From a virus, in IMG/VR virus record IMGVR_UViG_3300027971_000139, positions 1-33,719 of that record: 33,719 nt of DNA. One strand, written 5' to 3'. The notes beneath the pieces were generated by a model. That model saw nothing but the letters and a program-made list of their open reading frames with translations. It did not search any database and was not told the DNA's origin. A program made the translations under genes and the position numbers. Positions 2,901 to 31,017 of the stretch are shown here, one piece after another. Position 1 is the first letter of the stretch. Every line of letters starts with the position of its first letter.

Positions 2901-3758
2901 TCAAGCTGCTATTGCCTCTGCAGTAGCATCTAGCATGTTGATGTAATCAGCTGCTTTCTGAGCAAGTGCAGCAGCTTTAAATACTGCCTTGCTGTCCTCT
3001 CTGAGAGCTTTAAGCCAGTGGCCTATGTAGCCAGCGTGTCTTAACTCTCCCTGAATGCCATAATCAGAGCAGAGGAAAGCTGCCGACATTTCAGCTACTA
3101 ATTCCTCGAAAGCATAGGCAGGGTTTCCAAATCTGCCCTTGTCCAAATCTCTATCTAATCGATTCTTGCTGCCTGTCCAGTGTGCCAGCTCATGGAAAGC
3201 AGTAGCATAATAATTTGCTTCACTGTCAAAAGCTGATTTGTTAGGCAGCTGGATTCTGTCAGCAGAGGGCATGTAGAAAGCAGCATCACCCCCATGAGAG
3301 ATAGCAGCTCCGGTTTTGATGATGCGCTGCTCTGCCAGCTCTACAGCTGTAAACTCTGCCTCTACTGTCTCAGCTGGCACAATGTCAATGCCCTCTACCT
3401 GAGCAGCATTAAAAACAAAGTATGTTTTCAGCACTGCATACTTTTCAATGTCTCCTGTTTGCTTGTCCTGTTTTGTCACTGGAGAATAGAAAACAATCTT
3501 TGTGCCTTTCTCACCTTTCTTGACATTTGCACCAATGCTTTCCCACTGTTTGTATGAAGCCCACACTGGCACTGAGTAGCCACGAATCATTGACGACATG
3601 CCAAGCAGTAGACGATTGATGCCCTGATAAGGTTTTTGAGAGACAAGGTTTTTATCTGCTGAGCTGTCTGCTTTCCAAGGTTTAATCCAAGGTGCAGCGC
3701 CCTGCTCTAGCTGCTCAATAATGCTCTGAGTTATCTCAGTGTAGATTGTTTGTGTCAT
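2901..3758 (-). CDS. ardC: ArdC-type antirestriction protein (ssDNA-binding plus zincin domain)
   Basis: The 285-residue protein has the ArdC layout. The N-terminal domain (about 1-125) matches the ssDNA-binding ArdC_N pattern (W24-IKPW, PYQGINR, KGEKGTKIV, YFVFNAAQ). The C-terminal domain (about 150-285) is a zincin-like metallopeptidase with HELAH (H189, E190, H193) followed by WTGSKNRL and the downstream glutamate helix EELVAEMSAAFL. Family members such as RP4 TraC and pSA ArdC protect incoming single-stranded or duplex DNA from host restriction. It stands first behind the leftward promoter at 3806-3833, a suitable place for a protein needed on entry. The start carries AAAGGTAAGTTACC before ATG. 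A terminator follows the stop. Confidence 0.9.
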   Translation of the reverse strand: MTQTIYTEITQSIIEQLEQGAAPWIKPWKADSSADKNLVSQKPYQGINRLLLGMSSMIRGYSVPVWASYKQWESIGANVKKGEKGTKIVFYSPVTKQDKQTGDIEKYAVLKTYFVFNAAQVEGIDIVPAETVEAEFTAVELAEQRIIKTGAAISHGGDAAFYMPSADRIQLPNKSAFDSEANYYATAFHELAHWTGSKNRLDRDLDKGRFGNPAYAFEELVAEMSAAFLCSDYGIQGELRHAGYIGHWLKALREDSKAVFKAAALAQKAADYINMLDATAEAIAA

Positions 3759-7206: not shown

Positions 7207-7704
7207 ATGGCAGTCCTAAAAGACTATTATTGCGATACGCACGGCATTTTTGAGGCATGGGAGGCAAAATGCCCCATGAAGAACTGCAAAGGCGAGCTGA
7301 GTGTCGTTTTTCTCAAACCAGTGGGCTTAAAGTCCGATAAAACCAAGAAAACAGACAGAACAGTCAATCAACTGGCTATTGACTACGATATGACCGATAT
7401 TAAGTCCACCAAAGAGGGTGAATATCAAACTGGCTACATGAAACGCAACAACAAGCTCTCTGACAAAGAGTTTGAACAAGCAACAGAGGCCATGAACGCC
7501 CAAAACAAAGAAGCAAGACCCGGTGACGCTGCGATATGGGGCGCTGGCGGAAACATCAGCATGAAATCCGTTATGGGTGGACAATTTAAATCCATTAATG
7601 GAGAATCTGTGGGAATAAACCCCAAAGCCGCAGGTAATTTAGCCGGGCCACGTGCCGCTAGTTACATGCCAGACCCCGATAATTTACAGGTGAGCAAGCC
7701 ATGA
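7207..7704 (+). CDS. Protein with N-terminal zinc-ribbon-like motif
   Basis: 165 residues. The N-terminus YYCDTHGIFEAWEAKCPMKN has Cys/His spaced C9, H12, C22, C27, consistent with a small zinc ribbon. The rest is polar and Gly/Asn/Lys-rich, probably flexible. AAGGGGGTAAC precedes the ATG. It overlaps the portal start by ATGA, so it is probably a structural or assembly factor made with the portal; that role is inferred. Confidence 0.7.
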   Translation: MAVLKDYYCDTHGIFEAWEAKCPMKNCKGELSVVFLKPVGLKSDKTKKTDRTVNQLAIDYDMTDIKSTKEGEYQTGYMKRNNKLSDKEFEQATEAMNAQNKEARPGDAAIWGAGGNISMKSVMGGQFKSINGESVGINPKAAGNLAGPRAASYMPDPDNLQVSKP

Positions 7705-9350
7705 GAATACCTACCGACCCGCAAGACCGTGAAATCTTTTATCTTGACCTGATTCAAAAATGCTTGGTGTCCAGAGAAGAGCGCAAAGTTGACTACAGTT
7801 CTCTGCGGAGTTGGTATCTTTTTGGTAACGGGCCTGATGAAGCGCCAGCTCTGTACAACAAAATCTTTCCTCACATTGACCAGCTAACCTCGTTCCTCTA
7901 CTCAGCGGAGACAACAAGGTTTAGCATTCAAATGGGCGCTGCCGTTAGCGAACAAGAACACGTGAAAGAGCCAACACTTACTCGTGCGCTCAATGACGAG
8001 TGGGTAAATAGCAACGCTGACCAAGTATTTTCTTCTGCAACAACTTGGGCGCTGGTCTACAACTCTTGCTTTGTTAAATTGATTGTCAACAACGGACTTC
8101 ACCCCTACCTTGTTGAGCCTTCCTGCATTGGTGTGCTGCGAGAAGATACGCCCTACACAGACAGACAAGAAGCACTTGTTCAAACTTACTACATCACAAG
8201 GTCTGAACTATACGCACGGCTTTACTCTCACCCCAAGCGAGATGAAATCGTTGCACGTGTAGGCGCTACGCAGCATGAGCGCACGGATATTGCCAACGGC
8301 ATAGAGCGCATTATCATGTCGCAGTCAAACCCTACCATGTACGGTAACGTCAACCTTGACCTTGCTGGAGGCAACCGCTACAAGGCAACCGTTGCTGAAG
8401 ACACTGTAGAGATGACAGAGTTGTGGGTGTGGAACGATGACATACAAGATTATCAAGTTGTCACCAAAGCAGACCCAGATGTCATCATTTATGACAGAGC
8501 TGGTGAATCAGTGTTTGTCAAAGGTGAGCTGCCTTTTGTGCAAATTGCACCTAACCCTTTGTATGACTATTACTGGGGCGGTTCAGAAGTACAGCGCCTT
8601 GTTTACTTGCAGCAACTGCGTAACAAACGCATGGCAGAAATTCTTGACTTACTGTCTAAACAAGTTTCACCACCAACGGCTTTGATTGGTTTTACAGGAA
8701 TCTTGGATGAGAAAAACTTTGCGCTCAACCGTGCAGGCGGCTTGCTTGCAACTGACATGCCTAACGCAAAAGTTGAAAAACTTGCGCCTCAAATTCCTCC
8801 AGATTTATTCCGTGAAATTCAAGAAATAGATTCCATGTTTGAAGAAGCATCTGGCATTGTCTCTGTGCTGCAAGGCAAGGGAGAGTCTGGTGTGCGCTCC
8901 TCTGGTCATGCCTCACAGCTGGCTAGACTTGGTTCATCACGTGCAAAGAAACGTGCGCTTATCATTGAAGACAGCTTGGAGAAGTTGGCGACACTGTATC
9001 TGAAAGCCATGCAGATATACGACAACACGCATTACACAGATACAGAGGGACGCAAGTTTATTGCTGAGCAGTTCACAAAAGATTTTGTTGTAAAAGTGGA
9101 CGCACACTCTAACTCTCCTATTTTCATGGAAGACCTGCGCCAGCTTGCGTTTAACTTGTACAAGTCAGAAGTCATTGACAAAGAATCTTTGCTTGACTTG
9201 CTTGAGCCTCCCATGAAACAATTACTCAAAGACCGTCTGAAAAAGATGGAAGAGAAAAAAGCCAAGCAGCAAGAAGCACAAGCGGCAGCGCAGCAAGCTG
9301 AAAAGCAAGCGCCAGCCAAAGGTAAACCAGACTTAAAACAGGTGGGATGA
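7701..9350 (+). CDS. Portal protein
   Basis: 549 residues, the usual size for podovirus portals. The N-terminal part (RSWYLFGNGPDEAP, NKIFPHIDQLTSFLYSAE) and the central wing/stem region (LPFVQIAPNPLYDYYWGG, VQRLVYLQQLRNKRMAEI) match the portal pattern. The C-terminus is a long Lys/Ala/Gln-rich helix (KKMEEKKAKQQEAQ), typical of the barrel or crown region. Portals form the dodecameric ring at the packaging vertex that docks the terminase and later the tail. It follows terL after three small genes. The order terL, portal, scaffold, capsid is standard. Confidence 0.88.
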   Translation: MRIPTDPQDREIFYLDLIQKCLVSREERKVDYSSLRSWYLFGNGPDEAPALYNKIFPHIDQLTSFLYSAETTRFSIQMGAAVSEQEHVKEPTLTRALNDEWVNSNADQVFSSATTWALVYNSCFVKLIVNNGLHPYLVEPSCIGVLREDTPYTDRQEALVQTYYITRSELYARLYSHPKRDEIVARVGATQHERTDIANGIERIIMSQSNPTMYGNVNLDLAGGNRYKATVAEDTVEMTELWVWNDDIQDYQVVTKADPDVIIYDRAGESVFVKGELPFVQIAPNPLYDYYWGGSEVQRLVYLQQLRNKRMAEILDLLSKQVSPPTALIGFTGILDEKNFALNRAGGLLATDMPNAKVEKLAPQIPPDLFREIQEIDSMFEEASGIVSVLQGKGESGVRSSGHASQLARLGSSRAKKRALIIEDSLEKLATLYLKAMQIYDNTHYTDTEGRKFIAEQFTKDFVVKVDAHSNSPIFMEDLRQLAFNLYKSEVIDKESLLDLLEPPMKQLLKDRLKKMEEKKAKQQEAQAAAQQAEKQAPAKGKPDLKQVG

Positions 9351-9505
9351 TGGCAGAAGCTAAAGCAGTATCACCAAAGAATGACCAGCCTCGGGTCAAC
9401 ACCAAAGAATTATCTCGTGGCGAGCAGTCACCTAGCTTGACATATCGCACTCAAGGTATTAAAAACACGACTGGGCGTAGTCAGCGTGATTATGCTCGCC
9501 GTTAA
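9347..9505 (+). CDS. 52-residue basic protein
   Basis: The frame begins at ATGATG (9347 and 9350), overlapping the portal stop, with GGTGGG just upstream. The protein is polar, with many Lys, Arg, Ser and Thr and no hydrophobic core (NTKELSRGEQSPSLTYRTQG), so it is probably disordered. Another short basic ORF at 28295 begins in the same ATGATG manner after a large virion gene. Function unknown. Confidence 0.55.
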   Translation: MMAEAKAVSPKNDQPRVNTKELSRGEQSPSLTYRTQGIKNTTGRSQRDYARR

Positions 9506-9521
9506 CAACTAAGGAATGAAC

Positions 9522-9560
9522 ATGTACAAATCTAAACGTGGTCGTAAGACCCGCAGGTAA
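9522..9560 (+). CDS. 12-residue Arg/Lys micropeptide, copy 1
   Basis: The frame reads MYKSKRGRKTRR and then TAA. AAGGA stands 7 bases before the ATG. Eight of the 12 residues are Arg or Lys. A second peptide of identical length and similar sequence follows at 9633. A small hairpin (ATTCC/GGAAT, 9560-9578) starts at the stop codon. A role in packing or neutralising DNA in the capsid, or as a regulatory leader peptide, is inference. Confidence 0.5.
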   Translation: MYKSKRGRKTRR

Positions 9561-9673
9561 TTCCCTTTAACAAGGAATCGGGTGTGGCTTCCTTCCCGCC
9601 AAAAGGTCGCCGCCTTCAACATGGAGAAGACTATGCGTAAAGCTCGTAAAGGTCGTAAGAGCCGCAAGTAATT
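9540..9673 (+). repeat. Tandem 23-base repeat covering the ends of both micropeptides
   Basis: The 23-base unit GGTCGTAAGA-[C/G]-CCGCA-[G/A]-GTAATT occurs at 9540-9562 and 9651-9673, identical at 21 of 23 positions. It encodes the shared GRK-x-R-[R/K] end and the stop codon of each peptide. It shows that the two small genes arose by duplication. Confidence 0.75.
9633..9671 (+). CDS. 12-residue Arg/Lys micropeptide, copy 2
   Basis: MRKARKGRKSRK and then TAA. I choose the ATG at 9633 because GGAGA (9624-9628) lies 4 bases before it; an in-frame ATG at 9621 would overlap that site. Nine of the 12 residues are Arg or Lys. It matches copy 1 in length and in the GRKxR motif. A strong hairpin begins at the last base of its stop codon. 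Confidence 0.5.
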   Translation: MRKARKGRKSRK

Positions 9674-9696
9674 AAGCGGGGGTAACCCCGTTTAAT
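9671..9696 (+). other. Stable hairpin with GTAA tetraloop after micropeptide 2
   Basis: ATTAAGCGGGG-GTAA-CCCCGTTTAAT is an 11-base stem (one G-U pair) capped by a GNRA tetraloop. No U-run follows, so it looks more like a stabilising or processing hairpin than a terminator. Confidence 0.55.
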
Positions 9697-9722
9697 TGCG
9701 GTTTGACCGTTAAAAATTCTTT

Positions 9723-9747
9723 GAAGGGCTGAATTAAAATGCCCTTC
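9723..9747 (+). terminator. Hairpin, weak terminator candidate
   Basis: GAAGGGC-11 bases-GCCCTTC is a perfect 7-base stem followed by ACTTGTT. The U-content after it is poor. It lies directly before the promoter at 9753-9781. Confidence 0.35.
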
Positions 9748-9752
9748 ACTTG

Positions 9753-9781
9753 TTGACAAGTTGTTTGTATATGGTTACAAA
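9753..9781 (+). promoter_or_regulatory. Rightward promoter inside the structural block
   Basis: TTGACA, 17-base spacer, TACAAA. A perfect inverted repeat GTTTGTA-TATGGT-TACAAAC (9763-9782) covers the -10 box and may be an operator. It would give the scaffold and capsid genes extra transcription from this point. Confidence 0.5.
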
Positions 9782-9801
9782 CGGCACATAAGGAGTTTTT
9801 C

Positions 9802-10278
9802 ATGGCTGTCCCTGAAGCTAAATTGATGGAGTTAATGCGAGGCCCACGCTCAGGCGGGGGTGGCAATCCTTCCGGTTTATCTATGCCTTCTGCTGATATG
9901 TCTAATCCGACAGCAATGTCAGATTCGGAAACTCCTCCGATGGCTTCGCCAATGTCCACGCCTGAACCCAAAATGGGGTCAAAAGAAGCCGCTATGATTA
10001 ACTTAGGGATGGCTATGGACTTGTTAGAGCAGTCTCTCCCAGCCCTTGGCTCAGAAACAGAAGAAGGACAGAAAGCTCTAAACGCTATTCGTGTCCTTAA
10101 TGGCATTCTTGGTCAACGCAAAAACAAAACAAACGAATTACAGCAGTCTGAAATTTTGCAGATGCTGCAAACCCTTCCTCAAGCTGGTGGCGCATCGCCT
10201 GAGGGCAAAGCTATGTCTCAAGCGCCTATTCCCGGTATGCCACCTATGGGCGGCGCACCACAACCACCCCAAATGTAA
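9802..10278 (+). CDS. Structural-region protein, Pro/Met/Gly-rich (scaffold-like)
   Basis: 158 residues. Low-complexity ends rich in Pro, Gly, Met and Ser (PSGLSMPSADMSNPT; PIPGMPPMGGAPQPPQ) flank one helical core (KEAAMINLGMAMDLLEQSLP). A clear GGAG precedes the ATG. The location between portal and capsid, the disordered ends and the central helix suit an assembly or minor capsid role. No family recognised. Confidence 0.7.
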   Translation: MAVPEAKLMELMRGPRSGGGGNPSGLSMPSADMSNPTAMSDSETPPMASPMSTPEPKMGSKEAAMINLGMAMDLLEQSLPALGSETEEGQKALNAIRVLNGILGQRKNKTNELQQSEILQMLQTLPQAGGASPEGKAMSQAPIPGMPPMGGAPQPPQM

Positions 10279-30198: not shown

Positions 30199-30592
30199 CG
30201 CACTGCTGAATGTGGGTGGAAAACTCATAGACAAGTTAATCCCCGACCCAGAGGCAAAAGCAAAAGCGCAGCTAGAGCTTCAGAAGATGGCGCAGGACGG
30301 TGAGCTTGCAAAGATGGCTAACGAGACTGAGCTGTACAAGACTGAGCAAAACAACCTGACAGAGCGTGTTAAAGCTGACATGGCATCTGACTCTTGGTTG
30401 TCCAAGAATATTCGCCCACTAACGCTGATATTCCTGTTAATAGCTTACTCAGGCTTTGCCATAGCTTCCATCTTTGAATACGAAACTCGTGGTGCATACG
30501 TAGAGTTGCTAGGACAGTGGGGCATGTTGGTCATGTCCTTTTACTTTGGCGGCAGAACTATGGAAAAGATTGCAGACAGGATTAAGAAATGA
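30185..30592 (+). CDS. Holin, three-span GTA/phage type
   Basis: 135 residues from the ATG at 30185, which is 7 bases after AGGAG; an ATG at 30179 is too close to that site. The amphipathic N-terminus (GGKLIDKLIPDPEAKAKAQ), a charged helical middle and SWLSKNIRPLTLIFLLIAYS fit the 'holin of 3TMs' family, although only two strong C-terminal spans are plain (TLIFLLIAYSGFAIASIF and LGQWGMLVMSFYF). It is followed at once by the endolysin (ATGA overlap). It probably forms the lesions that release the endolysin. Confidence 0.75.
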   Translation: MLGLDALLNVGGKLIDKLIPDPEAKAKAQLELQKMAQDGELAKMANETELYKTEQNNLTERVKADMASDSWLSKNIRPLTLIFLLIAYSGFAIASIFEYETRGAYVELLGQWGMLVMSFYFGGRTMEKIADRIKK

Positions 30593-31017
30593 AGCTCACA
30601 GAACACTTTACGCTTGAAGAATTAACCCATACAGACCATCGTGAATATGATAATACGCCAAATGATGCAGAACTGGAGAACCTTAAAAGACTCGCAGCCT
30701 TCCTTGAGGAAGTCAAACAAGCCTTGGGCGGAAGACCAGTTATGGTTAACTCAGCTTTTCGCAGCAAGCAAGTCAATGACGCAGTCGGTAGCAGGGATAC
30801 TAGCCAGCATCGCATTGGTTGTGCTGTGGACATCAGAATACCTCAACTAACCCCTGACGAAGTTGTGAAGACCATCATGGCTTCTGGCTTAGCTTACGAC
30901 CAGCTTATACGTGAGTTTGACAGGTGGACACATATCAGCATTCCCAACACTGCTGGCGCTGCTCCTCGCAAGCAAGTCCTCATCATTGACAAGCAGGGAA
31001 CAAGAAACTATGCCTAG
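30589..31017 (+). CDS. Endolysin, M15-family peptidase
   Basis: 142 residues. The zinc motif of the M15 (D-Ala-D-Ala carboxypeptidase-like) family is complete: SAFRSKQVN, SQHRIGCAVDI (H74, D81), then DQLIREF (E109) and WTHIS (H115). Enzymes of this kind cut the peptide part of peptidoglycan. No signal peptide is visible, so it needs the holin encoded directly upstream. Confidence 0.88.
   Translation: MKLTEHFTLEELTHTDHREYDNTPNDAELENLKRLAAFLEEVKQALGGRPVMVNSAFRSKQVNDAVGSRDTSQHRIGCAVDIRIPQLTPDEVVKTIMASGLAYDQLIREFDRWTHISIPNTAGAAPRKQVLIIDKQGTRNYA

Follow-up and report, generated by a model that had tools for sequence, protein, structure and literature searches.

Two arginine/lysine-rich micro-genes follow the portal gene

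Can two 39-base reading frames behind a phage portal gene be genes, and what would peptides of 12 residues do there? We addressed this question in a 33,719-base virus record (IMGVR_UViG_3300027971_000139), hereafter called the window, and in its relatives. Micro-open reading frame 1 (micro-ORF1; 9522-9560, plus strand; MYKSKRGRKTRR) and micro-ORF2 (9633-9671, plus strand; MRKARKGRKSRK) are each preceded by a Shine-Dalgarno site on the same strand, AAGGA at 9511-9515 and GGAG at 9623-9626, respectively. Eight of the 12 residues are basic in each peptide, which gives both the shortness and Arg/Lys richness of protamine-like or J-like DNA-packing peptides. An earlier note on this DNA had described the frames, their ribosome sites and their peptides correctly, along with a 23-base repeat (9540-9562 and 9651-9673) whose copies are indeed identical at 21 of 23 positions. 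The duplication origin it proposed is plausible in view of a near-identical frame pair, MRKARKAGRKTRR and MARKARKAGRKGRK, in the relative L205.

Selection of relatives by portal homology alone, which introduces no peptide bias, gave 80 loci, and nearly every one with sufficient downstream DNA carries both frames in the same order. When the matches listed in a peptide-pattern scan were added and only distinct downstream regions with 450 or more nucleotides (nt) were kept, 124 could be compared, of which 122 fit the micro-ORF2 pattern and 105 contain micro-ORF1. The remaining two (L075 and L077) have longer micro-ORF2 variants with the ends GRKARKDRK/GRKARKGRK, and micro-ORF2 occurs without micro-ORF1 in loci such as L082, L085, L088, L106, L116 and L127. 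Across the group the peptides are 12–14 residues long and Arg/Lys-rich, and the C-terminal pattern [KR]-[GST]-R-K-x-[RC]-R of micro-ORF1 is kept. Because the two micro-ORF2 pattern scans (at least 120 matches each, with figures from both given among the matches listed) needed the peptide for a match, they test its context and not residue conservation. Among the matches listed, the frame lies just past a homologous portal gene wherever the portal side is present; in the second scan, the matches listed include seven loci without a portal match, consistent with contig edges. As a control, frames of 11-26 amino acids (aa) with at least 50% K/R and a preceding Shine-Dalgarno site were counted on both strands of 118 portal-selected loci (1.82 Mb), revealing 177 at 60-900 nt past the portal gene versus five anywhere else. 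Two of these five (L227 and L228) are probably genuine, to judge by their appearance, and lie immediately ahead of the following gene. All figures count loci and not independent events, and selection was computed pairwise, without a tree.

In the portal-selected set, the ratio of nonsynonymous to synonymous change (pN/pS) was 0.34 for micro-ORF2 and 0.37 for micro-ORF1, and 0.43 and 0.21, respectively, between nearest neighbours, while the other two reading frames gave about 1.8-2.2. Length differences between the relatives' frames are whole codons. Frames, starts and stops are conserved in relatives with synonymous-biased change, which is the behaviour by which the earlier note had proposed to tell genes from chance frames. 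The micro-ORF1 core never swaps R and K (46/46 R, 46/46 K), despite single transitions sufficing and although synonymous codons vary, and in the micro-ORF2 core one divergent sequence alone departs, at several positions. To judge from these alignments, selection retains the identity of R and K, beyond their charge. The Arg codons of micro-ORF2 are essentially all of the favoured CGT/CGC type in the same set, as in the capsid gene, which disfavours the rare-Arg-codon version of a regulatory leader that the earlier note had considered. An extended reading that bridges the two frames was rejected: the lengths of the space separating them are spread over all three residue classes, and the space is therefore non-coding.

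As predicted for genes this short, normal annotation misses them: the phage collection contains two annotated relatives, which have both frames and annotate neither. Antisense 'hypothetical' genes are annotated across the micro-ORF region in L192 (5779-6039; MW202825) and L193 (4740-5038; MW202753), in both cases on the minus strand. The sequence evidence strongly supports the view that the micro-ORFs are genuine genes, so far unannotated, on which selection acts.

A conserved pseudoknot precedes micro-ORF2

Covariation in 120 sequences supports an H-type pseudoknot between the two frames (9579-9613, plus strand), with stems P1 (9579-9582:9595-9598) and P2 (9584-9593:9604-9613). A model of the element matches the window at 9577-9621 with 45 bits. 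In the 120 sequences, 87% of cells are paired versus 42-65% when slid, and two-sided changes occur at nine pairs. Double-change cells number 115, compared with 28 after shuffling and 7-37 after sliding (covariation 0.233 vs 0.090). Pairing in P1 reaches 96%, all 4/4 of its pairs show two-sided changes, and its variants, compared by eye, read CGGG:CCCG in the window, ACGG:CCGU in L200 and AGAG:CUCU in L314. P2 is 84% paired with two-sided changes in 5/10 pairs and includes non-Watson-Crick pairs; part of the RNA core positions are invariant. With a model of P2, 16 of 19 records gave exactly one hit each. In the window, the 3' end of the pseudoknot lies 9 nt ahead of the micro-ORF2 Shine-Dalgarno site, placing it 5' of the ribosome site as in a T4 gene 32-type leader.

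The window had no match at the Rfam gathering threshold, and a relaxed threshold applied to the window, L201 and L025 regions gave none that was credible (best E 0.08, far below family thresholds). Membership was not found for Rfam families including Downstream-peptide and the small pseudoknot riboswitches. A prior description of the unit was not found in the literature searched, a scope that most subscription papers lay outside. The pseudoknot is a previously undescribed RNA without an Rfam family.

The fold of the micro-ORF region beats all 200 dinucleotide shuffles (z -3.3). The earlier note had placed a hairpin at each stop codon, a claim that holds for micro-ORF2, where a stem-loop seen in the fold and in relatives spans the end of the frame and its stop (9659-9704, plus strand; inner stem 9671-9681:9686-9696). 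Here 87% of relatives have a hairpin that starts with the final stop-codon base, versus 27% of shuffles and 19% of other gene stops. The window has such a hairpin for micro-ORF1 too (9560-9578, plus strand), likewise starting with the final stop-codon base and abutting the pseudoknot. It was rejected as a general rule since relatives do not exceed chance (35% vs 31%; 87% vs 76% under a looser rule).

Reciprocal scans revealed that the pseudoknot and micro-ORF2 predict one another. An RNA-only pattern scan uncovered 70 new loci, 68 of which encode a basic micropeptide preceded by a Shine-Dalgarno-like site; the 69th (L359) has, by eye, a longer, less basic peptide and the last (L362) is broken off by the contig end. 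Wherever the portal side is present, these loci lie past the portal gene (64/64). Pseudoknot and micropeptide are kept even beside portals 45-50% identical to that of the window (L200, L201, L204, L206, L208, L212). In most outgroups a TTGACA...TAGTGT/TAGAGT-like sequence stands 5' of the pseudoknot, and terminator-like hairpins, some with T runs, stand 3' of the frame. L205 has the order promoter-like sequence, pseudoknot-like variant, two frames and terminator-like hairpin. By eye, hairpins with a CGTCA(G) loop recur past the micro-ORF stops of the distant relatives L201, L204, L206, L208, L212, L214, L217, L218 and L225.

From comparative sequence data, the two micro-genes and the pseudoknot are almost certainly real and selected. 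The pseudoknot, absent from the earlier note, is likely the regulatory half of the unit.

Genomic setting of the unit

The portal gene (7701-9350, plus strand; 549 aa; Pfam SU10_portal 3.3e-9; PHROG 1216 portal) is the upstream neighbour of the unit in nearly all relatives. The earlier note was right that the frames come after it, but a conserved 52-aa frame (9347-9505, plus strand) with homologues in L224 and L306 intervenes before micro-ORF1. By synteny, the downstream limit, where checkable, is g158, a gene of 158 aa (9802-10278, plus strand), and where checked the unit sits directly past the portal, with the head genes beyond it. A promoter-like TTGACA-17-TACAAA sequence ahead of g158 (9753-9781, plus strand) recurs in relatives. 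It lies below the threshold of a standard sigma-70 consensus scan, which gave zero matches in 9300-9900. On its 5' side, a hairpin of 7 bp with an 11-nt loop (9723-9747, plus strand) is conserved in the relatives' sequences, by eye; within the window clade its loop has a conserved TGA...AAAAT-like sequence directly before the TTGACA.

Elsewhere in the window, a 285-aa protein (2901-3758, minus strand) combines ArdC N-terminal and MPTase-PolyVal domains, an antirestriction-like pairing, and a 142-aa M15-type peptidase (30589-31017) is a likely endolysin. A tRNA/tmRNA search found none. The carriers form a widespread uncultured phage group that is common in freshwater metagenomes. Matching genome contigs bear metagenome-assembled genome titles of several phyla, and phage contigs do not bin reliably enough to indicate a host.

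Possible functions of the micropeptides and the pseudoknot

We tentatively favour, at somewhat less than even chances, a mechanism in which abundant late nucleic-acid-binding peptides act in head or DNA-packaging morphogenesis and the pseudoknot controls micro-ORF2 translation. The two micro-genes and the structured RNA form one conserved unit, flanked by the portal gene and the following head gene. Favoured codons, Shine-Dalgarno sites and promoter-like sequence suggest that both peptides are abundant; they would be produced late in infection, and their composition suggests that they bind nucleic acid via RK pairs spaced by small residues. Given their position among head genes, they could contribute to head or DNA-packaging morphogenesis, much like the basic J/VP8 peptides of Microviridae; a DNA-packing or morphogenesis role, as the earlier note had suggested, is possible. 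With lower confidence, the pseudoknot may control micro-ORF2 translation and, by analogy with T4 gene 32 (PMC535899), free peptide might bind in the groove of P2 and so complete a feedback circuit of the kind that T4 gp32 operates at its 5' pseudoknot operator. A new RNA-peptide partnership, in which the 12-residue peptide and the preceding pseudoknot act jointly, in feedback control or as a small ribonucleoprotein in head assembly, is less likely than not.

Several observations weigh against this mechanism. The micro-ORF2 Shine-Dalgarno site lies outside the pseudoknot, which in the window is internal to an operon, away from any obvious mRNA start. That R and K keep their identities speaks against a role limited to bulk charge neutralisation. 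L202 (portal identity 70%) has neither micropeptide nor RNA, and the RNA is absent from L197 (65%), L306 and L326, the last two of which retain two peptides; the unit is thus not essential across the lineage. Some counts come from scans with the peptide or the RNA built into the pattern, the portions free of such bias being the portal-homology loci, the pN/pS analysis and the 118-locus after-portal control. No cultured relative turned up among the relatives found.

Non-Watson-Crick pairs are common in the binding sites of arginine-rich peptides. Those within P2, together with the mutual prediction of pseudoknot and micro-ORF2 and the fixed R/K identity, speak for peptides that are RNA-binding regulators and not structural, micro-ORF2 binding its own pseudoknot to set portal/head operon expression. 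We consider this unlikely, as 12-14 residues leave scant room for an effector domain and L306 and L326 keep two peptides while lacking the RNA. The retention of these peptide pairs, and the in-frame purifying selection on the peptides, make it a good deal less probable still that the RNA is the main product, as a small RNA or cis element, with micro-ORF2 a minor coupled passenger, even though part of the RNA core is invariant and L200, L204, L206, L208 and L205 share an order of promoter-like sequence, pseudoknot, frame(s) and terminator-like hairpin.

Stem-loops after short frames would also fit ribosome-stalling leader peptides that attenuate the following genes. This is very improbable: the micro-ORF2 Arg codons are favoured throughout and form no rare-codon run, residues stay constant while codons change synonymously, and the next gene has a separate promoter-like site in the window. 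Chance frames within a structured RNA, as might be supposed from the stem that contains part of micro-ORF2, are contradicted by in-frame selection and by the 177-to-5 enrichment after the portal, leaving this explanation a negligible chance.

Comparison with known systems

These are conserved protein genes of 12 codons, under the size limit of most annotation and tryptic proteomics, and they are tied to an RNA motif not in Rfam in common freshwater phages. They offer a compact system for learning how so small a peptide works and is controlled, and, should the RNA-peptide partnership hold true, would be some of the smallest conserved genes to have a structured leader of their own. The J/VP8 proteins of Microviridae are likewise very small, Arg/Lys-rich and phage-encoded, with a tie to head assembly, but they are about three times longer, have a buried C-terminus and belong to single-stranded DNA viruses (PMC11281519). 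The Downstream-peptide motif similarly pairs a structured leader with a very short conserved frame showing synonymous and whole-codon changes, yet it is cyanobacterial and from marine hosts (PMC2864571), and the sequence here has no match to it.

The T4 gene 32 operator combines a pseudoknot of ~28 nt at the 5' terminus with a 3' part holding the ribosome site (PMC535899). Its gp32 is, unlike the micropeptides, a large cooperative single-strand-binding protein (PMC535899), and autoregulation belongs to T4 and is presumed here by analogy. In both systems the ribosome site of a phage protein that binds nucleic acid, a property presumed for micro-ORF2, has an H-type pseudoknot on its 5' side, and the likeness extends to the outgroups, whose pseudoknots lie near the inferred mRNA 5' end.
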